64,000 nucleotides of DNA. Source: an uncultured SAR86 cluster bacterium (GTDB lineage Bacteria > Pseudomonadota > Gammaproteobacteria > Magnimaribacterales > D2472). Both the position numbers and the translations under genes were made by a program. Where the stretch lies: NCBI GenBank assembly GCA_943788515.1, contig CALSQM010000010.1:1-64000 (forward strand), given 5' to 3'. Below are positions 44,662 through 62,248 of this stretch, piece by piece. The notes beneath the pieces were generated by a model. The model saw only the letters and a program-made list of their open reading frames with translations, did not search any database and was not told where the DNA came from. Positions within the stretch are counted from its first letter, which is position 1. The number at the start of each line of letters is the position of its first letter.

Positions 44662-44721
44662 AGTATCCAATAATTAAAAAAATGTATCTTACAATAAAAA
44701 TTGTACTATTTGTTAAATTAT

Positions 44722-45660
44722 TTAATCTTTTAAAAACTCTAAGGCTTGCTCTCCGAACTCTGACCACCAATGCATACCCATCAAATGTATTTTTTCCAGA
44801 TTTAAATCAGAGCTGTCATCAAGTATTTTATTGATATTGCCTAGCGATGAATTAATTCTAAGATATGAGTCGCCTATAATATCTTCAGCGATATCATGGT
44901 GAATTTCTGAATCAAGCATCATTCCCATTATATCATTTCGAAGCCACCCAACTCCTCCCCAAATAGATGATGATTTACCATTTATTTTTTTCTTATTTAG
45001 ACCTGCACCAATACTAAGAATTTTAATCCTATCGGTTTGAAAATATTCCTTAGCCTGAGCAAAGCCAATCATTGAGGGGTTATTTGTTACAACACCTCCG
45101 TCTATCATCCACTTACCATTTTGCATTTGGTATGTTGGAAAGTACATTGGCGCTGCGCTTGAGGCACACACTGCATCAGTTATGCTTATTTCAGGTGTAG
45201 AAAAATTACTATGAATAGCGTGAACTCTATTCTCGACATCATAAGCTAATGTAACTAGGGGTTTTTTTACTTCTCTAAGCAAGTCCGTGGAGAAGATTTC
45301 ATTAAGCACTCCAACCCTGCCCTCTGATTCGTACCTTGGCCTGGCCTGAATAAGAGATGCTTTATCCCAGAAGAATGAGGTTTTCATAATTCTTTCAAGA
45401 TACTCCCTAGACCAATATTTTTTTAATTCTGATGCTTGCATTCCATTATGAGCAAGACAAGCAGCATTAAATGCACCTGCGCTAGTGCCAACAAACATGT
45501 CAAAGGAATCAAAAATTTTTTTTCCAGACTCTGCTTCAAGTTTTTTTAAAAATACAATACCAGCGATAGCTCTAACTCCCCCGCCGTCAAGTGAAAGAAC
45601 TTTTTTAAACTTTGACTTCTGCTGGGGTTTTTTAAAAACATTAAAAAAACTATTCATCAT
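44722..45660 (-). CDS. Patatin-like phospholipase
   Basis: A 312-residue acyl hydrolase. The glycine-rich oxyanion loop DGGGVRAIAG is near residue 27, the nucleophile in FVGTSAGAFNAA near 60 and the catalytic Asp in MIDGGVVTNNP near 175. The first two codons are both ATG. Cytoplasmic or peripheral membrane; releases fatty acids from lipids. No signal peptide visible. Confidence 0.87.
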   Translation of the reverse strand: MMNSFFNVFKKPQQKSKFKKVLSLDGGGVRAIAGIVFLKKLEAESGKKIFDSFDMFVGTSAGAFNAACLAHNGMQASELKKYWSREYLERIMKTSFFWDKASLIQARPRYESEGRVGVLNEIFSTDLLREVKKPLVTLAYDVENRVHAIHSNFSTPEISITDAVCASSAAPMYFPTYQMQNGKWMIDGGVVTNNPSMIGFAQAKEYFQTDRIKILSIGAGLNKKKINGKSSSIWGGVGWLRNDIMGMMLDSEIHHDIAEDIIGDSYLRINSSLGNINKILDDSSDLNLEKIHLMGMHWWSEFGEQALEFLKD

Positions 45661-45690
45661 TTTATTGTAAACAGATAAAAAATTTTAGAT

Positions 45691-45720
45691 ATAAAAAAGG
45701 GCCTACAAAGACCCTTTTTT
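45691..45720 (-). terminator. Rho-independent terminator after the PAN-domain gene
   Basis: Stem AAAGGG/CCCTTT flanked by longer A and T runs (45693-45701 with 45712-45720) around a ten-base loop, 16 bases beyond the stop of the PAN-like gene. Confidence 0.75.
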
Positions 45721-45735
45721 ATTTAATGCTGGTAA

Positions 45736-46023
45736 CTAATTCTTAAGGCCTGATACTGCATCTGTGTTTTCGGTTTCTTTAGTAACTGTTTTTAGAATTG
45801 TACAGCTGCCTTTTGATGCATCAAGTGTAAAAGCCACACATGATGATCTGCTAGTGCAAAGTGCCTGACAACTTTCTACTGTTCTAAATTTCTTTGAAGT
45901 TTTCACGGTTGCTATTTTTCCAGATAGTGAAATATCAGCTTTAGGTGTGAAGTTCATGTCTGCAGCAAAAGCAGGAAGTGCAAACATAGCTGTGAATACA
46001 ATAATTGAAGTTAGTTTTTTCAT
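45736..46023 (-). CDS. Small secreted PAN/Apple-like domain protein
   Basis: A 95-residue periplasmic protein. The signal peptide ends at LPAFAADMNF; the mature part has TVESCQALCTSRSSCVAFTLDASKGSCTIL, the Cys spacing of a PAN/Apple domain, a binding module for proteins or sugars. The ATG at 46023 follows a TAAAGG site; the longer frame to 46062 is unlikely. An inverted repeat (CTTACTTATGTAAG, about 46064-46077) lies in its upstream region. Confidence 0.7.
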   Translation of the reverse strand: MKKLTSIIVFTAMFALPAFAADMNFTPKADISLSGKIATVKTSKKFRTVESCQALCTSRSSCVAFTLDASKGSCTILKTVTKETENTDAVSGLKN

Positions 46024-46142
46024 ATTTATACCTTTAGGGGGGTTAAAAATTATTATTTGCACTTACTTATGTAAGCACTGAACACATCTTAAATAAAAAT
46101 GTATGCACTGTATACATTAAAAGTATATAAATATTGAATCTA

Positions 46143-46454
46143 TTATTTGACTATATTTAAATTCAAGAGATCGCTGGCCTGTTTAAGACTTCCAGCATTA
46201 GTAACGTTTGAATATCCAGCATCAATTAATATTTGAGTAGCTCTTCCTGATCTATTTCCACTTCTGCAATACAAATAGATTTTTTCATCTTTATTTACTG
46301 AGTTTGTGATATTTTGAATATCTTGCCACTCGATATTCATTGCATTTTCTAAGTGGCCACTGGACCATTCGTCTGGAGTTCTGACATCAATTACTACATC
46401 TGCATATATTATAGGCAGAAACAATATGCCCATAAGAATCTTCTTCAAAACCAT
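46143..46454 (-). CDS. Secreted rhodanese-domain protein
   Basis: A 103-residue protein with a short signal peptide (ILMGILFLPIIYADV) and one rhodanese domain. IDVRTPDEWSSGHLENAMNI and the active loop YCRSGNRSGRA with its Cys are visible. Periplasmic sulfur transfer or redox role. The ATG shares a base with the GMC oxidoreductase stop (TAATG). Confidence 0.85.
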   Translation of the reverse strand: MVLKKILMGILFLPIIYADVVIDVRTPDEWSSGHLENAMNIEWQDIQNITNSVNKDEKIYLYCRSGNRSGRATQILIDAGYSNVTNAGSLKQASDLLNLNIVK

Positions 46455-48133
46455 TAAGCCCAGTCCTCTAAAATCATATCTGATGCTTTTTCACCTATCA
46501 TGATTGTTGGAGCATTTGTATTGCCCCCAACTAAGGTAGGCATAATAGATGCGTCTATTACCCTTAACCCAGATACTTTATGCACTTTTAATCTTTCATT
46601 TACAACTGACATCTCATCACTACCCATTTTACATGTTCCAACCGGATGATAGACAGTGTCTGCGTCCTCTCTAATAGCCTGCTCAATGTCTTCATCATTA
46701 TCTAAGTCGACAGGTCTTTGAACATGACCGCTTGTGTATTTAGATAAAGGTTCTTTATTCATAACTTTCATCATTTTTTTATACCCAGCAACCATATCTC
46801 TCATATCATCTGGATGAGATAAGAATTTCGGATCTATTTTTGGATCATCTGTTGGATCTGCGGATTGAAGCGTAACCTCCCCTCTAGATTTGGGTCTAAG
46901 TAAGCAAGTATGACAACTTAATCCAGTGCCCCAAACACTTTCTCTTCCATGATCGACAACCATCCCTGGTGCAAAATGGAGTTGAATATCAGGAACTGTA
47001 ATATCATTTCTTGATCTAATAAAACCACCAGCCTCAGCGACGGTTGAGGTAAACATTCCAGTCTTTATAAGAAGGTATTTAACAAGCTCGTAGGGATACT
47101 TTAAGAAAATTGTTCCTAAAGAAAAACCAAATAAATTAAGAGACTTATATTTATGAACAGATAAATAATCTATGTGATCTTGAAGATTCTTCCCAACACC
47201 AGGTAAATCAACTTTGTGTTCAATACCGTGCTTTGTAATCTCTTGCTCTGGCCCAATTCCAGATCTAAGTAATACCTGAGGAGAACCAAAAGCGCCCGAT
47301 GATAATAAAACTTCTTTAGTAGCATTAAGTGTGAATTCATTGCCATCCTCTCCAATACATGACACACCGGTGGCCCTACTATCATTTACCAAAATTTTAT
47401 TTACATTAGTATCAGTTAAAACTGTCAAGTTTTCTCTCTCCAATGCGGGGACTAAATATGCCTTAGCAGCACTACATCTCTTACCGTTTTTTTGAGTAGT
47501 TTGATAATACCCAATGCCCTCTTGGCTTTCGCCATTAAAATCTTCATTAAAACCAAAAACCGATGACCCTGTTTCAACAAAATCGTCTACAGGTTTATTT
47601 TTGTGACGAATATTAGCTACATTTAAGGGACCATCCTGGCCATGGAAATCATTTTGATGAATTTCGTTATGCTCAGCTTTCTTAAAGTAAGGCAGGATCT
47701 CATCATATGACCAACCATTATTTCCAAGCTCAGACCAATGATCATAATCCCACTTGTGACCTCTAACATATAACATTGCATTGATTGAACTAGAGCCGCC
47801 CAGTGTTTTGCCTCTTGGCTGATACCCTCTTCTATATTCCTCACTTTCAGATTCAACCTCATGGACGCCGCCTGATGAATCTACCATAGCCTTGGCAGGC
47901 TCGGTTACTTTTACTTTTGCGAACTCTTTTTGAGGTTCTGTATTGTAATTCCAGCTGTATTTACTTCCCGCTCCAAGGAATGCAAAGCCCAGGGGAACAT
48001 GAAGTCTTACATCGGTATCTCTTGATCCTGCTTCAATTAAACATACATTAAAGTGAGGGTTTGAACTTAGCCTGTTGGCTAGAACACAACCTGCGGAGCC
48101 GGCACCTAAAATTATAAAATCATATTCTTTCAT
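46454..48133 (-). CDS. GMC-family choline dehydrogenase-like oxidoreductase
   Basis: A 559-residue flavoprotein. The FAD motif LGAGSAGCVLANRLS is near residue 10, GKTLGGSSSINAMLYVRG near 108, and the C-terminal catalytic-His segment VYHPVGTCKMG leads into GGNTNAPTIMIGEKASDMI. Closest in layout to choline/alcohol dehydrogenases (BetA group). No betaine-aldehyde dehydrogenase is nearby, so the alcohol substrate is open. Confidence 0.87.
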   Translation of the reverse strand: MKEYDFIILGAGSAGCVLANRLSSNPHFNVCLIEAGSRDTDVRLHVPLGFAFLGAGSKYSWNYNTEPQKEFAKVKVTEPAKAMVDSSGGVHEVESESEEYRRGYQPRGKTLGGSSSINAMLYVRGHKWDYDHWSELGNNGWSYDEILPYFKKAEHNEIHQNDFHGQDGPLNVANIRHKNKPVDDFVETGSSVFGFNEDFNGESQEGIGYYQTTQKNGKRCSAAKAYLVPALERENLTVLTDTNVNKILVNDSRATGVSCIGEDGNEFTLNATKEVLLSSGAFGSPQVLLRSGIGPEQEITKHGIEHKVDLPGVGKNLQDHIDYLSVHKYKSLNLFGFSLGTIFLKYPYELVKYLLIKTGMFTSTVAEAGGFIRSRNDITVPDIQLHFAPGMVVDHGRESVWGTGLSCHTCLLRPKSRGEVTLQSADPTDDPKIDPKFLSHPDDMRDMVAGYKKMMKVMNKEPLSKYTSGHVQRPVDLDNDEDIEQAIREDADTVYHPVGTCKMGSDEMSVVNERLKVHKVSGLRVIDASIMPTLVGGNTNAPTIMIGEKASDMILEDWA

Positions 48134-48221
48134 GAAATTCTCCCCAAAATCAATATCTACAGTTTATGTTTAACTTCTATATCTGTAAACTTATTAATAT
48201 TTATAAAGTTTATGTGCTCCT

Positions 48222-48971
48222 ATGAGTTTATTTAATATATTTATTATTTTTTGGGTCCTTGTGGCTATCGCTACATTTATTTACCTTTTTTTTAATAATG
48301 CACCTTATGGCAGGCACATAGAGGAAGGCTGGGGAACAAATATTTCAGCAAGAGCTGGTTGGGTTATTATGGAATCGCCTTGCGTTATATTGATGATCAT
48401 ATTTGGTTTAATAGTTAGGAATGACCTAGATTTAGTCCATGAAGTATTCTTGATGATTTGGTTAACGCATTACACTCATAGAACATTTATTTATCCATTT
48501 GTGATTGATATGACGAACCCAAAAATGCCAATAAGCATAGCTGTATCGGCATTCTGTTTTAATCTAGTGAATGTTAGTATCCAGGCCTTTGGTATATTTT
48601 ATTTTACGAGTTACTCTTCTGATTGGCTTTCATCTGATACCTTTATTGTAGGCTTGTCTTTATTTTTTATTGGTATGTTTATTAATATCAGATCAGATTA
48701 TTTAATTGTAGGCCTAAGAAAGAAAATGGGACCAGGCTATCATTTGCCTAATAAATTCCTTCATAAGTATGTATCTTCCCCTAACTATTTTGGAGAAATC
48801 ATAGAGTGGATTGGTTGGGCAATATTAACCTGGAGTATTTCTGGATTAGTTTTTTTACTTTGGACAATAGCTAACCTTTTCCCAAGGGCTATAGCACACC
48901 ATAAATGGTACCAAGAAAAATTTGGAAACTATCCTAAAAATAGAAAGGCTATTATTCCAGGAATAATTTAA
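48222..48971 (+). CDS. Steroid 5-alpha-reductase-like membrane enzyme
   Basis: A 249-residue, six-helix membrane protein. The C-terminal part has GPGYHLPNKFLHKYVSSPNY, FGEIIEWIGWA and a final YQEKFGNYPKNRKAIIPG. This is the conserved NADPH-binding end of 3-oxo-5-alpha-steroid 4-dehydrogenases and related DUF1295 proteins. Bacterial versions act on sterols or other polyprenoid-like enones. Convergent with the epimerase gene, overlapping by four bases. Confidence 0.85.
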   Translation: MSLFNIFIIFWVLVAIATFIYLFFNNAPYGRHIEEGWGTNISARAGWVIMESPCVILMIIFGLIVRNDLDLVHEVFLMIWLTHYTHRTFIYPFVIDMTNPKMPISIAVSAFCFNLVNVSIQAFGIFYFTSYSSDWLSSDTFIVGLSLFFIGMFINIRSDYLIVGLRKKMGPGYHLPNKFLHKYVSSPNYFGEIIEWIGWAILTWSISGLVFLLWTIANLFPRAIAHHKWYQEKFGNYPKNRKAIIPGII

Positions 48972-49966
48972 ATCAAATCGTAATCAACAATTTGTTTTGC
49001 AGCGGCTAAGATAGATTCTTCTGCAGCAATAGGGTTCCATCCAAGCACATCTTTTGCCTTAGTTGTATTGCAGTCCCTTTGCTTCCCAGCCATTTTAGAA
49101 ATAGTTTTTAAGTCACTTTTAAACAAAGCCATTACTTTTAATAAAAGGTTTGGCATATTTTTTTCAGGAGCTTTGTATCCATTAGCATTCAGGACATTGG
49201 CGATATCACTCATCCACATCTCTTTTTCAGAAACAATAAACCTTTCGCCATCCGACTCTGTATTTTTCATAGCTAATATGTGAGCCTTAGCAACATCCCT
49301 TACATCCACAATACCTATATGAATTTTTGCAAGAGCTGGCATGGAGCCGTTAAGCATTCTTAGGACCATTGAATTAGAAATGCCAACATCATCTGACAAT
49401 GATGGCCCTAGAACTCCAACAGGATTAATTACAGTTAATTTATAACTTACATCATTGTCCTTTACATAATCCCATGCAGCTCTTTCGGCTAAAGTCTTGC
49501 TCTTGGAATAGAAAGTCATTTTGTCATTAGAAGTATCTGACCAATGGGTTTCATTAAAACTTGTAGTGCCATCAAAAGTATCACCGACAGCAGCAAAGGA
49601 TGAAGTTAACACCACTTTTTTAATATCGTGCTTGTCAGCAAATTTTAAAGCCCTTAATGCGCCTTCTACAGCAGGCTTAACAAAAAACTCTTCGGTTTCA
49701 TTTGAAAGTACAAATGGTGACGCGACATGCAGAAGGTAATCACAGCCGGACATAGCCTCATCCCAACCCTCATCGCTCATTAAATCAACAGGAAATAGAG
49801 TAAGGTTTTCACAAGAAGTATTATGCTTTTCAAGTGACTGTCTTACTTCAGACTCTCTTTGCATTGAACGCAGACTTCCATTAACTGCATAGCCTTGCTC
49901 AAGAAGCTGTTGTATACAATGAAGACCGATAAACCCAGTCGCACCAGTTACTAATACTTTTTCCAT
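48968..49966 (-). CDS. NAD(P)-dependent epimerase/dihydroflavonol-reductase-like SDR
   Basis: A 332-residue extended SDR. The cofactor motif VLVTGATGFIGLHC is at the N-terminus, DYLLHVASPF near residue 82, and the catalytic YxxxK is FYSKSKTLAE near 152. This matches the dihydroflavonol-4-reductase/3-beta-HSD group, plausible beside a steroid-reductase-like gene. Substrate unknown. Confidence 0.85.
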   Translation of the reverse strand: MEKVLVTGATGFIGLHCIQQLLEQGYAVNGSLRSMQRESEVRQSLEKHNTSCENLTLFPVDLMSDEGWDEAMSGCDYLLHVASPFVLSNETEEFFVKPAVEGALRALKFADKHDIKKVVLTSSFAAVGDTFDGTTSFNETHWSDTSNDKMTFYSKSKTLAERAAWDYVKDNDVSYKLTVINPVGVLGPSLSDDVGISNSMVLRMLNGSMPALAKIHIGIVDVRDVAKAHILAMKNTESDGERFIVSEKEMWMSDIANVLNANGYKAPEKNMPNLLLKVMALFKSDLKTISKMAGKQRDCNTTKAKDVLGWNPIAAEESILAAAKQIVDYDLI

Positions 49967-50032
49967 ACTTCACCTTTTTAAAAATTAGATTAATCATCAT
50001 ACATTAATTTATTTTTATATTAAGATTGCCTA

Positions 50033-50431
50033 ATGAATAAATATATCAAAGCATTAGCAATCGTATCCATTGCGCTCAATTCGCAGGCAGATACCTCAAA
50101 AGAACAATCTGCATGTATCAATGATGCCTTAATACAAATATTAAAAACTGACGAATCTAAAAGAGAAAGGCTGGTTATATTTAATGAAAGTAGTGATGAT
50201 CTAGAATTAAAAGAGCTATTACATCAATTGAAAACAAGCTCAGAAAATAATACCTTCTACTTAATCGATCTGGATACTTTATGGAATTGGGATAGGAAAA
50301 ATGAAATGAAGTTTATTTATAAAATTCTTGATTTAATGAACAGAAACTATCAATTGGAATCTGTAAGCCCTAACTTAAAAAATAAATACCTTTTAGAAGC
50401 TAGGCATATGTGTGAAGGCCTAAGTAAATAG
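50033..50431 (+). CDS. Secreted hypothetical protein
   Basis: A 132-residue protein with a probable signal peptide (ALAIVSIALNSQA) and a charged helical body. Two Cys (residues about 26 and 128) could pair. No recognised family. Convergent with the ABM-like gene at 50453-50875. Confidence 0.55.
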   Translation: MNKYIKALAIVSIALNSQADTSKEQSACINDALIQILKTDESKRERLVIFNESSDDLELKELLHQLKTSSENNTFYLIDLDTLWNWDRKNEMKFIYKILDLMNRNYQLESVSPNLKNKYLLEARHMCEGLSK

Positions 50432-50452
50432 GCCCTCATCGATTTAACAATC

Positions 50453-50875
50453 TTACCTTTTAAAACCGTTTATTAAGGTCCTGTGGTCCTGGGTGAAAGC
50501 CGACATGGCCTCCTTGAGCTCATCGCTGGTATCTCCCATCACTTGAAAATTAGTGATGACAAATGTGTCAATGAACTTTTGTTTATGCGAGGCTTTGTCG
50601 AATGCATCCATATGAAATAAAGCATCCTCATTGCTATGATAGACCTCCATTAAAGATACTTTTGTTTTGTCCTCTGAGATCCAGTACTTATAATACATAG
50701 TCTTAGGTTCCGTTTTTTTTACTGTTTTTACTAGATAGTCTACGAAGCCTTGAACGCTATCAGATTTACCCTCAGCAATATCCATATCTAGATAAAAAAT
50801 TATAGGTTCAGACTTGTGATGCATGGCCATCAGAAATGATGGCATCAGCATGGTTAGTAATAATAATTTTTTCAT
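50453..50875 (-). CDS. Secreted ABM-like (dimeric alpha/beta barrel) protein
   Basis: A 140-residue protein: signal peptide MKKLLLLTMLMPSFLMAMHH, then a single ferredoxin-like domain with YYKYWISEDKTKVSLMEVYH and DALFHMDAF, the pattern of antibiotic-biosynthesis-monooxygenase-like folds. A clear AAGGAG site precedes the ATG. It follows the 274-residue lipoprotein by 10 bases, so they form a pair. Confidence 0.65.
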   Translation of the reverse strand: MKKLLLLTMLMPSFLMAMHHKSEPIIFYLDMDIAEGKSDSVQGFVDYLVKTVKKTEPKTMYYKYWISEDKTKVSLMEVYHSNEDALFHMDAFDKASHKQKFIDTFVITNFQVMGDTSDELKEAMSAFTQDHRTLINGFKR

Positions 50876-50885
50876 TTAGCTCTCC

Positions 50886-51710
50886 TTAATTGGATGGGAA
50901 CGTAGGCATGAAATCTTTATCATCTGCATTATATAAAGTGAACCCATGATACAAGTCAGGAACCTCGCCACAGGATGCAAATGTGCTAAATATTGGGAAC
51001 ATTGTTTCCCTAACGCTTGCCTCAAATGAATTATTTGCTTTGTTCATTGACTCCTCGCTATTTGTAAAATTAGCCCAAAGAAAACCACCACTTCCATCAA
51101 CATTGAAATAATTTCCTAAGTGATACGAAGTATCTGAATAATCTGCATTAGAGACTGCATCTGTAAAACCTGAAAGGAAACTTATTGCTTCTTCTTGTGT
51201 AGAGCCATCATTCAACTCACAGATATGAACCTCACCATAGAAGTATCCTGAATCAGGAAGCTCGCTATATTGAGCAGAAGCTATAGGAAAAACGCTCTCG
51301 AAACCATTTATGAGTGATTCATCGCACTGAAGCACAGATGCGTACTTTTCATTCCATGCAGCAGCTTCTTTATTTTGAGACCATTCTGACCATGCCTCTT
51401 GAGCCTCTTCTTTTGATCCCCACTGGATTTCCCACCAACCGTTATCTGGAAAAGAGTTTGTAGCTACAGCTGGCGCGTAACCCCAGACACCTTGAAGATT
51501 TTCATTGGTAAGCAGCTTTTGCCATTCAGCGATCATGCTTGTCATATTCTCAGATGTATAATCTGGTCCTGCCGTGCATGGCATAAATTCGGTGTAATAG
51601 ACCTTTGAAAGTCTATCCTCAACAGTTTCGTTGATGCATCGCTCGGACTCCTCCATAGAGCAACTGACAATAAATACCAAAGGTAAAATAAAATTAAATA
51701 TGTTTTTCAT
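50886..51710 (-). CDS. Lipoprotein with repeated ABM-like halves, unknown function
   Basis: A 274-residue protein with lipobox VFIVSCSMEE (Cys about residue 17). The body is Trp-rich with two halves of similar layout (WWEIQWGSKEEAQEAWSEW, and later GFLWANFTNSEESMNKA). This resembles tandem dimeric-barrel domains and the broken secreted protein at 36318-37084. It forms an operon with the single-domain ABM-like gene. Possibly binds a small ligand in the periplasm. Confidence 0.6.
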   Translation of the reverse strand: MKNIFNFILPLVFIVSCSMEESERCINETVEDRLSKVYYTEFMPCTAGPDYTSENMTSMIAEWQKLLTNENLQGVWGYAPAVATNSFPDNGWWEIQWGSKEEAQEAWSEWSQNKEAAAWNEKYASVLQCDESLINGFESVFPIASAQYSELPDSGYFYGEVHICELNDGSTQEEAISFLSGFTDAVSNADYSDTSYHLGNYFNVDGSGGFLWANFTNSEESMNKANNSFEASVRETMFPIFSTFASCGEVPDLYHGFTLYNADDKDFMPTFPSN

Positions 51711-51941
51711 AATTCTCCCAATTATGTAATTGAATATTTATTCTCTCATTTAGTAAGAGCATGTCAAATATTAAAAACACATATAATTTTTAGATCTAAA
51801 TGAAAGGTACAATAGGTATATTGCAGGATGCTAAGACAAGGAGACTTAAAATAATAAGTATAATTTTCATAAAATTTATTAATTGATAGTTGCCCTATTA
51901 TACATAGGAAGAGATTTAAATTCTGAATGTTATGATGCCTC

Positions 51942-52160
51942 ATGGCACATGAACAGAAAAATAATCCATTGCATGGAATTACATTAGAAAAGATAGTTAC
52001 AAGCCTTGTTGACTACTATGGATGGGCAGCTCTTTCCAAACAAATTGATATCAACTGCTTTAAGAGCAACCCCTCTATTAAGTCATCATTAAAATTTCTA
52101 AGAAAGACGCCCTGGGCTAGAGAAAAGGTTGAGGCCCTGTATCTGACGATCTCTAACTAA
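51942..52160 (+). CDS. VF530-family DNA-binding-like protein
   Basis: A 72-residue protein matching the VF530 family almost end to end: [12 protein letters not shown] at the start and [20 protein letters not shown] at the end. A solved VF530 structure from Vibrio suggested DNA binding, but the role is not established. The 231 bases upstream contain no gene I can support. Confidence 0.85.
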
Positions 52161-52166
52161 GTTCAA

Positions 52167-52451
52167 GTGATTAAATCCTTATATCTATTTTTTACAGCCT
52201 TAGCTTTAATATATGTAACTAAATTTGATAGCTATGGCTTGTATTTATTCATTGCTATTGTATGGATTATTGCCGGGTTCATTGAAAAAATTCAAAGGCC
52301 AGCTATATGGAGCATTATCATTTTTATGTCAGGCTTTGCTGTAATGAGATTAGTAAATATTGCAATAAATGGATTGCCGAGCTCCTTCTATCTTGCTATG
52401 TTTATTTCCGAGCTGATAATTATTTTAATTGGCATCAAATTAATCAAATAA
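52167..52451 (+). CDS. Small integral membrane protein (DUF4345-like)
   Basis: A 94-residue, mostly hydrophobic protein with about four short helices. The order (N-terminal helix, AIVWIIAGFIEKIQRP, then RLVNIAINGLPSSFYL) resembles DUF4345. The start is a GTG seven bases after the VF530 stop, with no ATG available. Confidence 0.5.
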   Translation: MIKSLYLFFTALALIYVTKFDSYGLYLFIAIVWIIAGFIEKIQRPAIWSIIIFMSGFAVMRLVNIAINGLPSSFYLAMFISELIIILIGIKLIK

Positions 52452-52530
52452 AAAACCTTAATAAGAGATAGTATTACGCCAATGTTACAAGCAGCAATGA
52501 TAAAAAAGAAGAAATAGAGCTGAGAGTTTT

Positions 52531-52992
52531 TTATTCCTTCTTCATACTATCTGATATTTCAGCCCAACTTCTATCCTTAGATGCAGCAGGGTTTTTTTTA
52601 AGATTATTGTTAGGATCTTTATATTTAGATGGGGTTTCTTCTAAATTTTCTACAAAACTTTTTTTCTTAGATGAAGAAGAGGAATTTTCTTTAGATTCCT
52701 TTTGTTTTTTATTTACTAAAGCTTCTTTGCTATTGAGGGAATTCTGAGTAACAAGATTATAAGACTGATTTTTGAGAGTACTATTTAATGAGAAGAGCAA
52801 ATCAATAATATTGGAAATACCTTTAAATAAATATCCTGAGACTAAACCGCTAAATAATGCACTTAATCCAATTAGAAGATAAAAGAGTTCTTTTTCTAGT
52901 ATAGAAAAAAGTATACAAAGGATTCCTGTAAGAATCCCAACCACTATAAAAATTGTTCCTATTGTATTTAGTGGCTCTTCTACTGTTTTCAT
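52531..52992 (-). CDS. Two-helix membrane protein with basic, Ser/Lys-rich tail
   Basis: A 153-residue protein: two transmembrane helices (about residues 13-60) followed by a low-complexity cytoplasmic tail rich in Lys, Ser and Asn (KENSSSSSKKKSF). No family recognised. Its start lies immediately next to the shared intergenic module at 52996-53043. Confidence 0.5.
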   Translation of the reverse strand: MKTVEEPLNTIGTIFIVVGILTGILCILFSILEKELFYLLIGLSALFSGLVSGYLFKGISNIIDLLFSLNSTLKNQSYNLVTQNSLNSKEALVNKKQKESKENSSSSSKKKSFVENLEETPSKYKDPNNNLKKNPAASKDRSWAEISDSMKKE

Positions 52993-53014
52993 ATTTCAAT
53001 AATGCCATAACCAA

Positions 53015-53043
53015 TTATCAAAATAAAATATATAAAATAATTT
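53015..53043 (+). promoter_or_regulatory. Sigma-70-like promoter in a shared intergenic module
   Basis: TTATCA (53015-53020), 17 bases, TAATTT (53038-53043). The same block with the same spacing occurs at 55094-55122 and 59603-59631. It lies directly upstream of the ECF-type promoter of the sigma gene, giving a tandem arrangement. Confidence 0.4.
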
Positions 53044-53068
53044 GTAACATTTTCCATTCTGCTTCGTT
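53043..53068 (+). promoter_or_regulatory. ECF-type promoter of the sigma/anti-sigma operon
   Basis: AATTTGTAACA then, after 13 bases, TTCGTT. The AAC-to-CGT distance is 16 bases, the usual architecture of ECF sigma promoters. The same sequence blocks with identical spacing recur at 54328-54353. Upstream of the sigma gene itself, this suggests autoregulation. Confidence 0.55.
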
Positions 53069-53077
53069 ATAGAGTAT

Positions 53078-53661
53078 ATGGAGGCATTGGCAAAGGTTAA
53101 TACTGATACTGTAATTAAGCAGTCTAATTCTATTGTGCTTAAACATTCTAATAATAAAGTGTGCAAGAATAGAATAGAGATGCCCTTCAAAGAATTAATC
53201 AAACATATCAGTAAAAAACTCATGGGTTATGCCATGACACTTAGTAATAATGACCAGATGATGCATTGGATTTAATTCAATCCACCATGGTAAAGCTTAT
53301 AAAAAATCAAGATAAGCTTATGGATTCTGACCAGCCAATGGCATATGCAAAGAAGATTTTATGAAATGACTTTATAGATGGCTATCGGAAGAAACAAAAG
53401 ATGCCATTGGTATCAATCGAAGCAAATAATATTCCAGTAAGAAGTGAAGGTTTTCAAGAGGATGCTGTTGCATATCAAGAGATGCTTAGTTGTCTTGAGA
53501 GTTTTGATGAAACAGATAGAACCATACTAGCCATGCTTGGAGCTGGTCACAGTTATACAGAGATTCAAGAAGTTGTCAGCGATATCAGCATGGCAAATTT
53601 AAGAGTAAAAGCAAACAGAGCAAGGATACAACTTGCCAACTGCATAGGTAGAAAATTATGA
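53078..53661 (+). pseudogene. ECF (RpoE-like) sigma factor, disrupted
   Basis: Region 2 is split: frame one ends ...KLMGYAMTLSNND (about 53255), and the rest continues one base off as DDALDLIQSTMVKLIKNQDKL, the typical ECF region 2 helix. An in-frame TGA at 53362-53364 then falls where KKIL-W-NDFIDGYRK would be expected. Region 4 follows intact (53401-53661) with LESFDETDRTILAML and the helix-turn-helix HSYTEIQEVV to LRVKANRARIQL. Adding one base and reading TGG for TGA gives about 194 residues, normal for ECF factors. Translation may begin at 53180 rather than 53078, given the promoter. It is coupled to the anti-sigma gene by ATGA. Confidence 0.7.
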
Positions 53662-54320
53662 ATGAAGAAACACAAATACAAATAATTGAACTGATGGATG
53701 ATGGTGCAACTCTTGAGAGTTCTCCTGAACTCAAAGGACTAGTTGAAGCTTCAGAAGAAGCAACCAAGTTCTATGAGAGCCTATTAGTTTCAGAGTCTAT
53801 GCTAGAAGGATTCTTTGGTGGAGAGAAAGCTAAAGAGCTTGATCAGAAGATAGATGCTTTTATTGATCAGCAACTTGAAAAGCCTTCTAATGTTTCCTCT
53901 ATAACTTTCAAACCCTTTATAGGTTTTGCAGTTGCAGCAAGTTTAGCTGTCATAGCTTTTACCTTTGTGAACTCCCCTGCTGAAATACTAGAACCAGTTG
54001 CTCCAGTACAAATAGCATATGAAGAACCTGCTCCAGTTGTTGTAGAAGAAATTATTGAAGAGCCTGAACCAATGTTTGTTGCTGGTTCAGATATGGAGAC
54101 TCTATGGAGTACCGCATCCCAGATAGCTAATGAATTAGGTGTAGATAGATACCAAGTTATGTATGCCCTTTATGAAGCTAACAAAGATTTCTTTGTTAAT
54201 AACAATATCAATGCCCCAAGAGCAGATAGAAATTACTTTGTTGACTTGGCTATCATTGAATCTGTTGACCCAATCTTTGCATCAAGAGAAGTTAAAAACC
54301 ATATTTTCTGTAGTTGTTAA
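53658..54320 (+). CDS. Transmembrane anti-sigma factor with FimV/LysM-like periplasmic end
   Basis: A 220-residue protein: an acidic helical cytoplasmic domain (1-80), one helix (about 86-105), a Pro/Glu/Val-rich periplasmic linker (107-140), and a C-terminal module (145-196). The module reads METLWSTASQIANELGVDRY then VMYALYEANKDFFVNNNINA, closely following the FimV N-terminal 'TLW.IA...V...QMM.AL..ANP.AF..NNIN' pattern. Gene order and the ATGA overlap with the sigma gene identify it as its anti-sigma. The FimV-like part may sense peptidoglycan or envelope state (inference). Cys residues at positions 218 and 220 end the protein. Confidence 0.7.
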   Translation: MNEETQIQIIELMDDGATLESSPELKGLVEASEEATKFYESLLVSESMLEGFFGGEKAKELDQKIDAFIDQQLEKPSNVSSITFKPFIGFAVAASLAVIAFTFVNSPAEILEPVAPVQIAYEEPAPVVVEEIIEEPEPMFVAGSDMETLWSTASQIANELGVDRYQVMYALYEANKDFFVNNNINAPRADRNYFVDLAIIESVDPIFASREVKNHIFCSC

Positions 54321-54327
54321 ATTAATT

Positions 54328-54353
54328 TGTAACAAATCCTAATTTGGTTCGTT
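54328..54353 (+). promoter_or_regulatory. Second ECF-type promoter
   Basis: AATTTGTAACA and TTCGTT separated by 13 bases, matching the sigma-gene promoter at 53043-53068 in both blocks and spacing; the spacer itself differs. It precedes the membrane protein gene at 54390 with a 30-base leader and an AGGAG site. Confidence 0.5.
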
Positions 54354-54389
54354 GAAGGAGTAACGAAACATTTTTTATAGGAGTTACAA

Positions 54390-54719
54390 ATGGAAGAAGT
54401 TATTGGGTATGTCATTGTTGGATTAGTTGTTCTTGGTCTATATCTAGGCATAAAAAAATTATTTAAAAAGAAAGCAGGTTTGTTTACCTATGAAGATGAG
54501 ATTATTTTAGACAAGAAGATGTTGCATTACGGTCCGTTCTCCGGGGCTTTTGTGTATCCGCATCGTAAGTTTATCCTCCTCCTATCAATCTCATCTTCAT
54601 TTCTCACAGCAGAATGGGATATAAGAACCATAGATGGTTGGGGCATAGATGCTTATTCAAATGAAAATCTCATCATGCATAAAACTGGAGACGATCACCT
54701 GAATCTAATTTATATCTAG
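54390..54719 (+). CDS. Single-pass membrane protein, probable ECF-regulon member
   Basis: A 109-residue protein with one N-terminal helix (VIGYVIVGLVVLGLYLGI), a KKLFKKKAG basic stop, and a globular C-terminal part with EWDIRTIDGWGIDAY. No family recognised. It has its own AGGAG ribosome site and the ECF-type promoter 37 bases upstream. Confidence 0.6.
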   Translation: MEEVIGYVIVGLVVLGLYLGIKKLFKKKAGLFTYEDEIILDKKMLHYGPFSGAFVYPHRKFILLLSISSSFLTAEWDIRTIDGWGIDAYSNENLIMHKTGDDHLNLIYI

Positions 54720-54721
54720 AA

Positions 54722-55092
54722 ATGGCTAGACCCTTTTGTGTTACCTCTGAGCCAACAGTAACGACACCAGTTGGAAAAACTAACTATTCAGTAGATCGAC
54801 CGTATCAAAGCAACCATGACTAGTTAATAGAGGTAAGTCAAAAGATATAGTTTTAAAGGTTGGTAATATAATCGGTGAAGGTTCTGATATTGATTATGTC
54901 TTAAAGCTTATGTACTTCCCTTCTTTTAGATACGCAGAAACATTTGATATCAAGTTCAACCATGCCTCTCCCATGGAAGATATGAGTTTCACTATAAAAG
55001 GAATGTCTAATGCAATGAAGCAGTCAGAGAAAATGTGTATGAGTAGCTTTGATTTGCAAGAACCAGAGATGCAAGAGACAAACTTAATTTAG
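54722..55092 (+). pseudogene. Hypothetical protein, probably frameshifted
   Basis: An ATG two bases after the previous stop opens a 33-codon frame (MARPFCVTSEPTVTTPVG) that stops at 54821. A second frame one base off runs from about 54818 to 55092 (GKSKDIVLKVGNIIGEGSDI and on). Adding one base near 54820 gives about 123 residues in one frame. No family recognised. The alternative is two unrelated short frames, with the second starting at 54910. Confidence 0.4.
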
Positions 55093-55093
55093 T

Positions 55094-55122
55094 TTGTCAA
55101 AATAAAACACATTGTTTAATAT
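55094..55122 (+). promoter_or_regulatory. Sigma-70-like promoter, shared module copy
   Basis: TTGTCA (55094-55099), a 17-base spacer and TAATAT (55117-55122), 20 bases before the next gene. The first 23 bases, covering the -35 box and the whole spacer, are identical to the block at 59603-59625. Confidence 0.55.
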
Positions 55123-55142
55123 TAATTTAACAAACTTTAGGA

Positions 55143-55559
55143 ATGCTGATGGACATAGTAAAGATATTTAGAATATTAGTTGTAGTGAATTTTATGATTT
55201 TTATTAGTTTTCTTTTTATAGATGACCAGTCACTTATTAACTCAAACACTGACTTGAATGCTGCTATTGAAGAGTCATCTAAAAGTGTAGTTAATAGTTG
55301 GAGTATTTATGCAATGATGGCTTTTGCGGTGGCTGCAATTGCCACAGGTCCTTTGTTATTTTTCTTTGTTAAATGGAGTAGAGAGTTACTTATTGGAGTT
55401 CTATCAACAGTCGTTCTTGTAGGGCTGATTGATTCATCTAACGGTTCTTTTGTTGTTGTTAGTGAGTTAGGTTTTCATATGACCGCATTAGAAGCACTAA
55501 GTCATGGAGCTATCTTAGCAATAGCTTATCTTACGCCTGTTAAAGATAAGTTTAATTAA
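55143..55559 (+). CDS. Hypothetical membrane protein, about four helices
   Basis: A 138-residue protein with hydrophobic segments near residues 8-27, 52-75, 80-97 and 110-130. A polar loop after the first helix contains SNTDLNAAIEESSKS. No family recognised. The second ATG (55149) is an alternative start. It is followed four bases later by a lipoprotein gene. Confidence 0.5.
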   Translation: MLMDIVKIFRILVVVNFMIFISFLFIDDQSLINSNTDLNAAIEESSKSVVNSWSIYAMMAFAVAAIATGPLLFFFVKWSRELLIGVLSTVVLVGLIDSSNGSFVVVSELGFHMTALEALSHGAILAIAYLTPVKDKFN

Positions 55560-55562
55560 GTA

Positions 55563-56198
55563 ATGAAATACTTTCTATTAATTCTCGTCTTTTTTATTAC
55601 TTCTTGCAGTCCTCCAGAACCCGGTACTAATGAATGGTTTAAAGAAAAATATAAAGAATTACTGAAAGCTGACCCAGAAGTAACTCTTAGCCTAGAGGAG
55701 TTTAAGGATATTTTTTCATCTCAGCTTTCAGAAGAAGTATCTGACAAAAAATTAATGGAAAAGCACAGTATAGGCTTTTGGTTAATGGAGGAGGACTTAT
55801 TACCATCATCTGAGGATTCAAAATCTATCGCTCCTGTGTATATAAGAACATTGAAACAATGTGCCGCAAATTTCTCTGTTATGTATTCCAATATGGAGGC
55901 TGGCCTTATGTATGGAAAAGCTATTACAGGCTTAGATGATGTAAACGAAATGTCTAGATTGTCAGGTGAATACAAAGACAATGCTTTTTATTTTGCTACT
56001 AGGGCTTCAGAGATTCATTTCAAACTAACCAATGAAGCAGTTGAGGCTGATATTAGCAATGAGATAAAGTTGATACAAGATGAAATAAATAGAATTAATT
56101 CAGATGAAAAGTTTTTAGAATTATTAGATGCTAATGCTGAAATATGTGTAATGGTAAGAAATCAAAATCCTAATAATAAAGATTATATTTTTGATTAA
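55563..56198 (+). CDS. Hypothetical lipoprotein
   Basis: A 211-residue protein with lipobox VFFITSCSPPEP (Cys about residue 16) and a mainly helical acidic body containing one later Cys pair candidate (CAANFSV and ICVMVRN). No recognised domain. In operon with the preceding membrane protein. Confidence 0.6.
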   Translation: MKYFLLILVFFITSCSPPEPGTNEWFKEKYKELLKADPEVTLSLEEFKDIFSSQLSEEVSDKKLMEKHSIGFWLMEEDLLPSSEDSKSIAPVYIRTLKQCAANFSVMYSNMEAGLMYGKAITGLDDVNEMSRLSGEYKDNAFYFATRASEIHFKLTNEAVEADISNEIKLIQDEINRINSDEKFLELLDANAEICVMVRNQNPNNKDYIFD

Positions 56199-56224
56199 AA
56201 TCCAAATTTAAAAAATATTAATAT

Positions 56225-56287
56225 TTATAAGCAACCAACAATTACGAATAGAAGTGATAGAGCTAGGAGTTTTTTTATTTCTTCCAT
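56225..56287 (-). other. Orphan lipoprotein signal peptide (leader remnant)
   Basis: A 20-codon frame whose translation is a complete lipoprotein leader, with IKKLLALSLLFVIVGC followed by one Leu and a stop. The DNA closely matches the leader of the lipoprotein gene at 58028-58846. It is either a decayed duplicate or a tiny lipopeptide gene; a duplication remnant is the simpler reading. Confidence 0.45.
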
Positions 56288-56294
56288 CAGGTTT

Positions 56295-56606
56295 TTAAAC
56301 TTTTGTACATTCTGACACACTTAAAAACATTTCTTTATCAGATTCGTAGAATGAAAAAAATCTTTTAGTTTTACCAACTGTGAAGTAATATTTATAGACA
56401 GTAGACCCACTAGTTCTTTTGTCTACACTATATATAGGCACTTTATATACAAGAGTTTCACTTCTAAAATTAACACTGAGAACTTCTTTAGTATCATCAA
56501 TACTTACTTCATACAATCCATTTAAACATTCATAGTTATATTGTTTAGGAGAGCAGCTTACAAGTACCAAAGGCGATAGAAGTAATAGAGCTAAGAGTTT
56601 TTTCAT
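56295..56606 (-). CDS. Small lipoprotein
   Basis: A 103-residue protein with leader MKKLLALLLLSPLVLVSCSPK (lipobox LVSC) and a small beta-rich domain with two further Cys (YECLNGLYEV and VSECTKV), likely a disulfide. No family recognised. Three bases after the MORN gene stop. Its leader DNA is one of four near-identical cassettes in the island. Confidence 0.6.
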   Translation of the reverse strand: MKKLLALLLLSPLVLVSCSPKQYNYECLNGLYEVSIDDTKEVLSVNFRSETLVYKVPIYSVDKRTSGSTVYKYYFTVGKTKRFFSFYESDKEMFLSVSECTKV

Positions 56607-56609
56607 TAA

Positions 56610-57302
56610 CTATAGTTTATTAATTAACGTAATAATGCATTGACCAAATTCTGAACTTCCTTTAACCAACCCCATGTTTTTGCAGGTAGTAGGTATGTAT
56701 TTATCATTTAAATAATAGCCTGTCAGCTGTTCTCCATCGGCAAAAGTGTAAGTACCTTGGCCATGTCTATTGCCATCTTTAAACTCACCGACGAATTTGT
56801 CTCCATCGGCAAAAGTGTAAGTACCTTGGCCATGTCTATTGCCATCTTTAAACTCACCGACGTATTTGTTTCCATCGGCATAAGTGTAAGTACCTTGGCC
56901 ATGTCTCATGTCATCTTTCCACTCACCAACGTACTTGTTTCCAGTGGCATAAGTGTGAGTACCTTCGCCATGTTTTTTGTCATCTTTATACTCACCGACG
57001 TACTCGGATCCAGCCCATTGGCTTTGATTGCCAACAGTTAAAGTACCTTGGCCATGTTTTTTGCCATCTTTAAACTCACCGACGTACTTGTCTCCAGCCC
57101 ATTTGCCTTGATTGCCCCAAGTATAAGTACCTTGGCCATGTGCTTTGTCATCTTTAAACTCACCGACGTACTTGTCTCCATTGGCAAAAGTGTAAGCACC
57201 AAAACATTTGTCCCCGATCTTGATAGTGCCACTATGGCAATCTGGAAGAGCATAAGCATTAGTGGTTATAGAGAAAAGAAGAAGCATAATAAGTTTATTC
57301 AT
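56610..57302 (-). CDS. Secreted MORN-repeat protein
   Basis: A 230-residue protein: signal peptide, then seven MORN units of the form KYVGEFKDGxxHGQGTYTxADG (residues about 38-195) and a short C-terminal tail. MORN repeats bind membranes or proteins in eukaryotes; secreted bacterial versions are uncharacterised. Two neighbouring units are identical over most of 69 bases of DNA (56737-56874), evidence of recent tandem duplication. Cys at residues 22, 33, 209 and 222 (approximate) may be oxidised. Confidence 0.85.
   Translation of the reverse strand: MNKLIMLLLFSITTNAYALPDCHSGTIKIGDKCFGAYTFANGDKYVGEFKDDKAHGQGTYTWGNQGKWAGDKYVGEFKDGKKHGQGTLTVGNQSQWAGSEYVGEYKDDKKHGEGTHTYATGNKYVGEWKDDMRHGQGTYTYADGNKYVGEFKDGNRHGQGTYTFADGDKFVGEFKDGNRHGQGTYTFADGEQLTGYYLNDKYIPTTCKNMGLVKGSSEFGQCIITLINKL
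56737..56874. repeat. Tandem 69-base repeat within the MORN gene
   Basis: Two adjacent 69-base units that differ at only a few positions, each encoding one 23-residue MORN repeat. Further more diverged copies of the unit extend to about 57190. Confidence 0.8.
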
Positions 57303-57342
57303 ATCTCAATAATGCCATAATATTTTGTCAAATAAGTAATAT

Positions 57343-57573
57343 CTACCCAGTTGCATTAATAAAAAATATTAAACCTATAAAAACAAATAGAATGTAGATA
57401 CTAATTATTTTTGTTTTAGTTGATGTGTTTTTTAAAGGATTAACCTTATCCATAAAATTATGAAACTTTTCCTTCAAGATGAAATCAAGCATAGCCATTA
57501 AGCTACCAAAGAAAATAAATCCAATAAAAGGTGAAGCTATAAAAATAACAAAGATATATTTAAGAATCTCCAT
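57343..57573 (-). CDS. Small two-helix membrane protein
   Basis: A 76-residue protein with hydrophobic helices near residues 5-32 and 52-73 separated by a basic loop with KNTSTKTK. No family recognised. Lies in the minus-strand run of island genes. Confidence 0.45.
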   Translation of the reverse strand: MEILKYIFVIFIASPFIGFIFFGSLMAMLDFILKEKFHNFMDKVNPLKNTSTKTKIISIYILFVFIGLIFFINATG

Positions 57574-57585
57574 AATCTCTCCTCT

Positions 57586-58026
57586 TTATTCTTCTTGTGA
57601 TGTTGTCATAGCTGTTAGAATTTCAAGACAAAACTTTAAATCTGATTTCATTAATTCAGAGAACAGCTCTTCACTTTGAGTTCTGTTTCTAAAATCTAAA
57701 AAGTGAGCTTCGTATTGTTTAAAGTAAGTCTGAATTGAATCTTGAGTATTACGCCATCTAGTATCCATATCTACATTTGGTGATTTTATTTTTCTAATTG
57801 AATAAGATTGGTTCATAAACATATCACCAACATCTTCAACTTCTGGGTTATCACCACCGATACTCAAGAAAGTTATAGCACTACACTTATCCGAACTATA
57901 AACAAAAAGGTCTAACTCTGATTCATTGGATGCATAAGGATTTTTATCAAAGTAATCATAGAGACTTTCAATCTCACCACTAGCCACCAAAGGCGATAGA
58001 AGTAATAGAGCTATGAGTTTCTTCAT
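57586..58026 (-). CDS. Secreted hypothetical protein
   Basis: A 146-residue protein with leader MKKLIALLLLSPLVASGEIE and an acidic helical body with two Cys (SDKCSAI and KFCLEIL). Not lipidated: the leader has no Cys, unlike its sister at 56295-56606, although the leader DNA is nearly the same. ATG at 58026 chosen; an ATG three codons upstream overlaps the previous gene. Confidence 0.55.
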   Translation of the reverse strand: MKKLIALLLLSPLVASGEIESLYDYFDKNPYASNESELDLFVYSSDKCSAITFLSIGGDNPEVEDVGDMFMNQSYSIRKIKSPNVDMDTRWRNTQDSIQTYFKQYEAHFLDFRNRTQSEELFSELMKSDLKFCLEILTAMTTSQEE

Positions 58027-58027
58027 A

Positions 58028-58846
58028 TTAATCATTATCTCTATAAAGAGATTTTAATGCTGACTCAGCCGAGCTTCCCGAATAAGTTGATTTCGATTTA
58101 AGTGCAATAATATCTTTTTTCATTTTGTTCATACTCTCAGCTTTTTTTGATTCAGCATAAGCATTTAAAAACATTAAAAATAAAGGTTCCTCGTCAGCTA
58201 CATGTGAACTAGTTGACGATAATTTTTGTTCTAATACCTTTATTTCATGCCTTTGTTTTTCAATTTGTAAATCTCTAAAGGCTTCTTGCTGAACACATGC
58301 AGCAATACTTGCAGTATCTGACCATCCAAAACTTTCACATCTTGAGGTAAGTCCTGCAAGAATAATTTCTTTTTGTTTTTTTTCTTTTTTTTCCCTAGAT
58401 TTTATATAATTTTTTTGTCTATTAAATACATCTTCAGGCATTGCAGTAGCAATCTTCATCTTTTTTAGATTCTTATATGAGCTTAAGTCATTGAAATAAA
58501 CTCTATCTTGATATCTAGACAATACACATCTTGTTTCTGAATCTTGAATCCCTCCCCATTTAGATACTCGATTCTCACATATATCTACTATCCATTTTCT
58601 TATATCAGTTACACCACCAGCTTCAAAATTAGAAGAATCTGAACCATAAAATAACTTTTCACCTGTTTGCAAATTAATTGCTTCAGCCCTCCAATAAGAT
58701 TTCATATCATCATATCTTTCTAAACCCTTGGAGATATTTGGATTTCCATTATATATTTCTAACATTGTTTTAGATTTTTCATCATTAAATGTGGTAGCAC
58801 ACCCAACAATTCCGAATAGAAGTAATAGAGCTAGGAGTTTTTTCAT
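58028..58846 (-). CDS. Lipoprotein with C-x-GF-like motif and coiled coil
   Basis: A 272-residue lipoprotein (leader MKKLLALLLLFGIVGCATT). A basic coiled coil (KSREKKEKKQKE) leads into SRCESFGWSDTASIAACVQQE, a variant of the widespread short C...GF..GT..FA.C motif. The C-terminus is helical with a Ser-rich tail. The ATG shares one base with the upstream stop (TGATG). Function unknown. Confidence 0.6.
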   Translation of the reverse strand: MKKLLALLLLFGIVGCATTFNDEKSKTMLEIYNGNPNISKGLERYDDMKSYWRAEAINLQTGEKLFYGSDSSNFEAGGVTDIRKWIVDICENRVSKWGGIQDSETRCVLSRYQDRVYFNDLSSYKNLKKMKIATAMPEDVFNRQKNYIKSREKKEKKQKEIILAGLTSRCESFGWSDTASIAACVQQEAFRDLQIEKQRHEIKVLEQKLSSTSSHVADEEPLFLMFLNAYAESKKAESMNKMKKDIIALKSKSTYSGSSAESALKSLYRDND

Positions 58847-59580
58847 CAATAGCCCGAGTAAGCAATTCCAAGAAAAAAGCCTAAGATTCCATATAATCCA
58901 ATAACAACTGGAAGTCCTATAATAAGTAGTGCTAATGCTTTAAATATTTTTACAGGCCAACTATTTTCATCATCCAAAATTAGGTTATATATAGGAAATA
59001 TAAGAGCTATTGAAAGTAAGGATTTAAATAAATTAGGGTACAGCATCGATTTAATTGAAGAGCCAGCAGACTCAAGTGATTGAAAAATACCTCTGCTTCG
59101 ACTGTAATTGCCGACAATATCATAATCTGTTGACCTATATTCAGCATCAAAAAAAATAAAGACTAATGCTGGAATAAGGATTGCAGGAAGAAAAAATAAA
59201 AATATGATAAATTTTCCAATCCAATAATCAGAACTATCACTTACTTCATAATTAGCGTTTGGTTTCTTTGGGTATTGTTTTTTTTTGTAAATAGCTTTTA
59301 ATCTTTTCTGTTCTTTCCATTCTGCTATCACTTCACTATTTTTATGCTCATCGCAAAATGGAGCTTCTCCTCTCCCAATTTCAATATTTTTTCTGCACTT
59401 ATGCCCCCTCCAATAAGACTCCTCCACCACATTTTTATTATTATTTTGTTTATAAATAGAATCAGCATGCTTCCAAGGTCTGCCATAAGCACCTGGTTGT
59501 TTATTGGCAAGGTCTAATTCTTTAGATTCTATTTCTGAAAACTTATACTCACATTTTTTTTTAAACTTTCTGTCAGTCAT
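58846..59580 (-). CDS. Membrane protein with N-terminal Cys/His cluster
   Basis: A 244-residue protein. The N-terminal 85 residues are polar and include HKCRKNIEIGRGEAPFCDEH, a possible zinc-binding cluster. Three to four helices follow (about 120-145, 190-205, 213-240). No family recognised. Starts beside the shared intergenic module, divergent from the 841-residue secreted protein. Confidence 0.5.
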   Translation of the reverse strand: MTDRKFKKKCEYKFSEIESKELDLANKQPGAYGRPWKHADSIYKQNNNKNVVEESYWRGHKCRKNIEIGRGEAPFCDEHKNSEVIAEWKEQKRLKAIYKKKQYPKKPNANYEVSDSSDYWIGKFIIFLFFLPAILIPALVFIFFDAEYRSTDYDIVGNYSRSRGIFQSLESAGSSIKSMLYPNLFKSLLSIALIFPIYNLILDDENSWPVKIFKALALLIIGLPVVIGLYGILGFFLGIAYSGY

Positions 59581-59584
59581 CCCT

Positions 59585-59631
59585 TAATAATGCCATAACC
59601 AATTGTCAAAATAAAACACATTGTTTAGGAT
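59585..59631. repeat. Shared intergenic module (copies near 52996, 55094, 57303 and 59585)
   Basis: AATAATGCCATAACCAATT followed by GTCAAAATAAAACACA and a TTGTTTA end. One copy is here, one at about 52999-53030 (a few changes), a diverged one at 57307-57335, and the right half alone at 55094-55117. The right half carries a TTGTCA-N17-TAGGAT promoter for the plus-strand gene here; the left half abuts minus-strand start codons in three of the four places. Confidence 0.6.
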
Positions 59632-59637
59632 GTGGTT

Positions 59638-62157: not shown

Positions 62158-62248
62158 ACTAGTTAACACCCAAAACCTTTCAAAATATTCGACCACTAGA
62201 TATATACCCACCCCACCCGGCTGGTACTCCTGCCCCCATATAGCTTAA

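Follow-up and report, generated by a model that had tools for sequence, protein, structure and literature searches.

What does a FimV-like module do at the periplasmic end of a probable anti-sigma factor? The question is raised by an open frame of 220 amino acids at positions 53658..54320 (forward strand) of the window, the stretch of 64,000 nucleotides from an uncultured member of SAR86 that is analyzed here. SAR86 is an abundant uncultured marine group. An earlier note on this DNA had read the frame as a one-helix anti-sigma factor ending in a FimV/LysM-like module, and had proposed a sigma pathway that would sense the cell wall directly.

The frame, whose start overlaps the sigma gene by 4 bases, encodes four parts, all on the forward strand. 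An RseA-like cytoplasmic domain (residues 1-85, 53658..53912), outlined from an AlphaFold model and from profile matches to RseA proteins, is followed by a single transmembrane helix (residues about 86-104, 53913..53969), a flexible Glu/Pro-rich linker (residues about 105-138, 53970..54071) recognized by its sequence and low pLDDT, and the FimV LysM module (residues 139-220, 54072..54317). The latter comprises FimV_core (residues 147-186), a C-terminal helix, and a terminal CxC, and was delimited using TIGR03505, the AlphaFold model, and hhalign. Hydropathy analysis shows one strongly hydrophobic segment, at residues about 86-104. In the model, the N-terminal domain consists of helices 3-14, 23-30, 33-54, and 56-73, with pLDDT of 84-90 for residues 1-40 and 55-69 for residues 41-70; residues 72-134 fall below 50, and the FimV module is the only folded periplasmic domain.

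The pattern from which the module had been recognized, TLW.IA, is a loose fit to the corresponding segment, TLWSTASQIANELGVDRYQVMYALYEANKDFFVNNNINAPRAD, but can be made out there; the assignment to FimV/LysM itself was borne out by profile comparison. No Pfam family matched the 220-aa frame. The NCBIfam model TIGR03505 (FimV_core) aligned with residues 147-186 at E=2.8e-9 and 36.7 bits, short of its curated cut-off of 43.45, and hhalign comparison of 14 anti-sigma C-terminal parts with the FimV cores of 18 SAR86 proteins gave a probability of 99.6 over 73 columns, taking in both the LysM and the helix behind it. The FimV match is more than chance. In the model the module contains a strand (139-141), two helices (149-160 and 164-174), and a second strand (193-195), with pLDDT of about 90; this strand-helix-helix-strand order is LysM-like, and the best Z score in the structure library is only 4.9. 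That score comes from a VIA-align look-up in PDB (6j0n_b, model residues 127-197), a weak match to what we take to be a LysM-bearing structure and not counted as evidence. Foldseek of the whole model against PDB returned nothing under E 3 (best E 3.2) and no confident LysM match. Searches of PDB sequences and PHROGs with the protein gave nothing useful, the one PHROG found being of unknown function (E 0.042, residues 145-184), and the sole matches to a profile of the C-terminal part, haemoglobins at E 0.26 or worse, were rejected as chance.

The fusion is not confined to the window. A scan of named contigs identified 23 loci, namely 21 full-length relatives (L045-L065), one copy cut by a contig end (L066), and one locus (L067) in which FimV_core matched alone, above the cut-off. 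The last is left out of the family counts, which refer to 22 loci (L045-L066); the alignment A4 also has 22 rows, the window protein and the 21 full-length relatives, L066 being omitted. Two subgroups are distinguished, A (L045-L055) and B (L057-L066), and L056 is apart from both. The contig titles name SAR86 in 18 of the 22 loci, and Pseudomonadota, Crocinitomicaceae, and Gammaproteobacteria (twice) in the others. Five module residues (W150, M168, Y169, N175, and F179) are invariant in all aligned proteins (22/22). The full-length protein was found in 12 of 101 genomes (the window's own and relatives, the own copy counted), and each of these 12 has a second FimV-module match in a longer, separate frame, which in the window's genome is a FimV-like protein of 385 aa on contig C4. 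The profile A6, which spans 107 N-terminal positions, gave strong matches (E<=1e-9) in 25 of 203 SAR86-order genomes; G005, one of the 25, is without the FimV module, and G194 is cut short. The earlier note had held that homologues lacking the segment would speak against the fusion: one distant relative (L043, in G005) does lack it, whereas 21 of the 22 aligned members match FimV_core at E<=0.01. The probable anti-sigma protein with the FimV module is a recurrent family in SAR86.

FimV_core as such is common, with matches in 289 of 369 Gammaproteobacteria. In the five stretches of 3.5-4.5 kb inspected around such matches, a very small part of the total, no sigma gene was seen by eye beside FimV_core and no second origin of the anti-sigma/FimV fusion emerged. 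In a tree of 46 cores, the anti-sigma modules fall on the SAR86 side and are separated (100/100) from six FimV cores of outside origin. The anti-sigma group needs two changes on this tree and one change in 28% of bootstrap trees; the tree, built from few columns, is compatible with one fusion or two and cannot say which. No phage relative of the protein was found in our search, and none of the 42 viral-contig stretches that matched a pattern for the N-terminal domain was confirmed as a relative.

Directly upstream of the frame, the window contains an ECF sigma gene (53078..53661, forward strand), located by tblastn with a relative's sigma protein, which aligned in two frames at 75% and 67% identity. 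In the window's assembly the gene is broken: its reading frame shifts near 53257, an in-frame TGA occupies 53362-53364, and the last 86 codons are open. Among the named loci, open sigma frames are 186-260 aa long in 21 of 22 and 158 aa long in L052. Sigma70_r2 is above cut-off in all three relatives' sigma proteins compared with it (L047, L053, and L060), and TIGR02937 (sigma70-ECF) is above cut-off for the first two and just below for L060. The open sigma frame overlaps the anti-sigma start in every named locus; the overlap measures 4 bases in 19 loci and 8 bases in three (L054-L056), so that the search for homologues in the same order beside ECF genes, proposed in the earlier note, returned that order in 22 of 22 loci.

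The N-terminal domain points to the RseA type. Run over 369 Gammaproteobacteria at E<=0.001, A6 matched seven, two in SAR86 and five outside it (E 1.5e-5 to 7e-4); three of these five were inspected, and all three are Pfam RseA_N proteins with a MucB/RseB gene next. In hhalign, the N-terminal profile reached 97.4 over 102 columns against three RseA proteins and 51.6 with the cytoplasmic parts alone; against five sequences that include SAR86's own RseA the values were 96.5 and 8.2, respectively. Not one of the 22 members was matched by Pfam RseA_N (PF03872; E<=0.1) or by any anti-sigma family in Pfam or NCBIfam, and the RseA_N controls L199, L200, L202, and L217 all matched above cut-off. The link to RseA is supported, in these profile comparisons, but owes much to the transmembrane region. 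Because the Pfam match is lacking and the similarity leans on that region, we call the protein RseA-like and do not file it as RseA. Moreover, A6 compared with the two RseA_N proteins that SAR86 itself possesses (L216 and L217) gave 0.5 and no alignment, which argues against simple common descent inside SAR86. A closer counterpart is L043, from the same-genus relative G005: its N-terminal domain is similar (E 2.2e-10; hhalign 96.8, and 94.7 for the cytoplasmic parts alone), and it has an ECF gene of its own and no FimV_core match. This locus (L043:2761-3898) is another ECF/anti-sigma pair of G005, with an unrelated periplasmic end. With an RseA-like N-terminal domain, a transmembrane helix, and a sigma gene overlapping its start throughout the named loci, the 220-aa protein is a probable anti-sigma factor, as had been claimed.

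A third gene, here called X (54390..55092, forward strand), follows the pair and is also broken in the window's assembly, by several frame changes and stops; in relatives it encodes two hydrophobic segments and a predicted IalB-fold domain. Of the 22 named loci, 20 have X (about 230 aa) downstream of the pair; the remaining two are truncated by contig ends that lie 88 and 109 bases past the match. In L062-L065, one or two inserted genes (by eye AlbA/Schlafen-like, AlkB-like, and Sel1-repeat) separate the anti-sigma gene from X with its promoter, and X is still kept. In a VIA comparison, residues 74-216 of the X model aligned with IalB of Bartonella (PDB 3dtd) with Z 10.1 and rmsd 3.4 over 131 residues at 18% identity, the next-best match being MotY (Z 7.3). 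The model has a mean pLDDT of 66, its Foldseek matches are weak (best E 0.045, with IalB outside the top 50), and none of 14 X members matched IalB or another family in Pfam or NCBIfam. X is present in 28 of 203 SAR86-order genomes, 22 of which have a strong A6 match. Shorter X-like frames with a signal-peptide-like start were seen by eye in seven genomes (G023, G025, G061, G064, G073, G097, and G182), where no sigma gene was seen by eye within about 3 kb. In G023 (L013; C1:472041), the X beside the anti-sigma gene is a short remnant, and at a distance of about 15 kb there is a shorter X-like frame.

The sigma gene and X share a candidate promoter. A motif search revealed the ECF-type sequence TGTAAC-N16-CGT upstream of the sigma gene (53043..53067, forward strand) and again upstream of X (54328..54352, forward strand); these are the only two matches in the window, against 0.12 expected. 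All 11 subgroup A loci have the motif before the sigma gene. Before X it occurs in 19 of 20 loci, the exception being L060, which has TGTCAC. In eight operon-bearing genomes, 15 of the 16 copies of exact TGTAAC-N16-CGTT are located at the operon, and eight genomes without the operon contain two copies in all; a reversed control pattern occurs 13 times in the former and 18 times in the latter. When the last T is dropped, 17 of 24 copies are at the operon and the other seven are scattered. Because 15 of the 16 exact copies lie there, the regulon detectable from sequence is the operon itself, as seen with a strict motif that misses looser promoters and in incomplete genomes. No strict forward motif was found close to the start of the subgroup B sigma genes, and L056 has no strict sigma promoter match. 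The subgroup B loci (10/10) instead carry the motif on the other strand in outward orientation, 70-72 bases before sigma, with a differing spacer and a differing stretch beyond it, facing differing neighbourhoods. A conserved small RNA or gene driven by it was considered and dropped, since little is conserved beyond the two promoter boxes.

Taken together, these data suggest an autoregulated ECF sigma/anti-sigma pathway of the RpoE-RseA kind, accessory in SAR86, in which the anti-sigma factor is anchored to peptidoglycan; we assign this reading a probability of roughly 55%. By its similarity and gene order, the RseA-like cytoplasmic domain would keep sigma at the inner membrane. The helix and the flexible acidic linker would reach the periplasm, where the FimV-related LysM module may bind glycan strands of peptidoglycan, as FimV does. 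One report describes binding of the FimV LysM of Pseudomonas putida to peptidoglycan of several species, apparently to strands two or more disaccharide units long (PMC12918733), in line with the link to peptidoglycan at the poles drawn in the earlier note. Altered attachment to the wall might then let a site-1 protease reach the periplasmic stalk, after which RseP could cleave the RseA-like helix and set sigma free; a Peptidase_M50 (RseP family) match was found in each of 6 genomes, the one in the window's assembly (G000) being disrupted. Free sigma would transcribe its own operon and X from TGTAAC-N16-CGTT, with X as the sole detectable output besides the pair. The state of the wall may in this way control the small gene circuit directly, with RsgI of Bacillus subtilis as a precedent for a wall-monitoring anti-sigma factor. 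More tentatively, the family could represent an anti-sigma factor hooked to peptidoglycan by a polar-landmark module, forming a self-contained wall-sensing circuit with one output (sigma, anti-sigma, and an IalB-fold effector) in changing SAR86 gene surroundings and perhaps firing preferentially at poles or septa.

The window copy itself may be dead or misassembled. One alternative, a serious one though short of an even chance, is that it is a decayed relict: sigma and X would be pseudogenes, and the anti-sigma would either persist by chance or regulate the sigma encoded by a second copy. The disruption of sigma and X suggests this, and G000 does contain a second X (C6:2-577), open, cut by the contig start, and sharing 92% identity with the window across 609 bases. 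Real decay is further favored because, in a comparison of the flank 44630-51905 with G004, the larger frames are free of uncompensated single-base indels; one such indel is seen close to where a 108-aa frame begins, a start that is itself uncertain. Sequence errors are favored, on the other hand, because fimV and rseP of the same assembly likewise look disrupted. The intact anti-sigma gene, with dN 0.129 and dS 1.12 relative to L047 (dN/dS about 0.12), also speaks against a relict. Either way, decay would touch the window copy and not the family. The second X and a second, likewise open copy of the lipoprotein-like gene that follows X stand at the contig start (L219, C6:1-6000) near frames that by eye resemble a restriction endonuclease and a DNA cytosine methylase. 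The operon occupies a variable slot (51900-62160) between conserved flanks, the left one reaching to the VF530 gene and the right one starting before a TrmJ-like gene, as named by eye: G011 is collinear on both sides and has about 2-3 kb (L168) where the window has about 10 kb. By eye, the window's slot includes small lipoprotein-like frames and a MORN-repeat-like protein.

For the family as a whole, the main competitor of wall sensing is that the module could only anchor or localise the complex. In that case the module would hold sigma and anti-sigma at the polar or septal wall, and the signal would come in by another route, for example through X or cleavage of the linker. This is rather unlikely, since signals usually reach anti-sigma factors of the RseA type by way of their extracytoplasmic part and the AlphaFold model offers no other folded periplasmic domain. 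Its appeal comes from FimV, whose LysM is reported to be required for polar position (PMC12918733) and for placing pilus parts at the poles (PMC5285504). All 12 genomes with the full-length anti-sigma factor have another, separate protein that carries the module, and X is constantly present beside the pair, save at the two contig ends; both observations agree with it as well.

Less probable still is a module that no longer binds sugar and has taken on a protein partner, most likely X or FimV itself, with the CxC and the X cysteines perhaps making a redox or metal contact. The CxC ends 13 of the 22 aligned proteins, C115 and C214 of X are invariant in 14 of 14 members, and the second-strand region of the module is unlike the LRxGxxLRIP of FimV; however, the nine subgroup B proteins have no CxC, and the five module residues invariant throughout the family speak against such a change of partner. 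Finally, that the 220-aa protein is a small FimV-like membrane anchor merely beside a sigma gene, as the want of any Pfam or NCBIfam anti-sigma match among members might suggest given that verified RseA controls do match RseA_N, is very improbable in view of the overlap with sigma in 22 of 22 loci, the RseA proteins found by the N-terminal profile, and L043, where a similar N-terminal domain stands beside another ECF gene without the FimV module.

If peptidoglycan anchoring with wall sensing is correct, transcription in a Gram-negative bacterium would be coupled directly to the state or place of the wall, without a separate sensor protein. SAR86 genomes hold few sigma genes (three or four Sigma70_r2 matches in each of six genomes), and the whole detectable regulon of this pathway is one operon. 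A domain swap makes sigma activity that follows the wall a testable question in E. coli. In the literature searched, in which subscription journals are thinly covered, we found no description of a fusion of an anti-sigma factor with a FimV or LysM domain, in agreement with the earlier note, which knew of none. In the portions available, PMC8103513 and PMC6863773 name no anti-sigma factor with LysM, and the sole mention of LysM in PMC3426412 is an entry in a promoter table.

Several known systems invite comparison. Relative to IalB (3dtd), X has extra N-terminal hydrophobic segments, linkage to a sigma gene, and no Pfam match. The RsgI-SigI system is Gram-positive, with another sigma class and another extracellular part than the SAR86 pathway. 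Common to both, for SAR86 as proposed here and for RsgI of Bacillus subtilis as described, are an extracellular part that monitors the cell wall and an intramembrane protease step, in RsgI the cut by RasP (PMC10202637; the wall-monitoring precedent also in PMC7478892); the available text of PMC10202637 mentions no LysM for RsgI.

The RseA-RpoE system shares more: an ECF sigma gene directly upstream, an N-terminal domain whose profile finds RseA, an RseP homologue in the genome, a promoter motif upstream of the own sigma gene, and one transmembrane helix of similar sequence (KPLAGFAIAASVA in the RseA_N control L199 and KPFIGFAVAASLA in the window protein). In contrast to RseA, the SAR86 anti-sigma factor has no Pfam RseA_N match and possesses a periplasmic FimV LysM module, and no rseB or degP-like gene is seen beside it, X being the next conserved gene. 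SAR86 also has a core sigma-E-like operon (L217; L216 by eye), which includes an ECF sigma gene, a Pfam RseA_N protein whose periplasmic part differs, and a trypsin/PDZ protease. With FimV/HubP the protein shares the periplasmic LysM-type FimV_core and the same helical extension behind it, whereas the module is C-terminal here, after the transmembrane helix of a 220-aa anti-sigma factor devoid of the long acidic cytoplasmic region and the C-terminal TPR domain. The anti-sigma factor carries the module of FimV but is no FimV.
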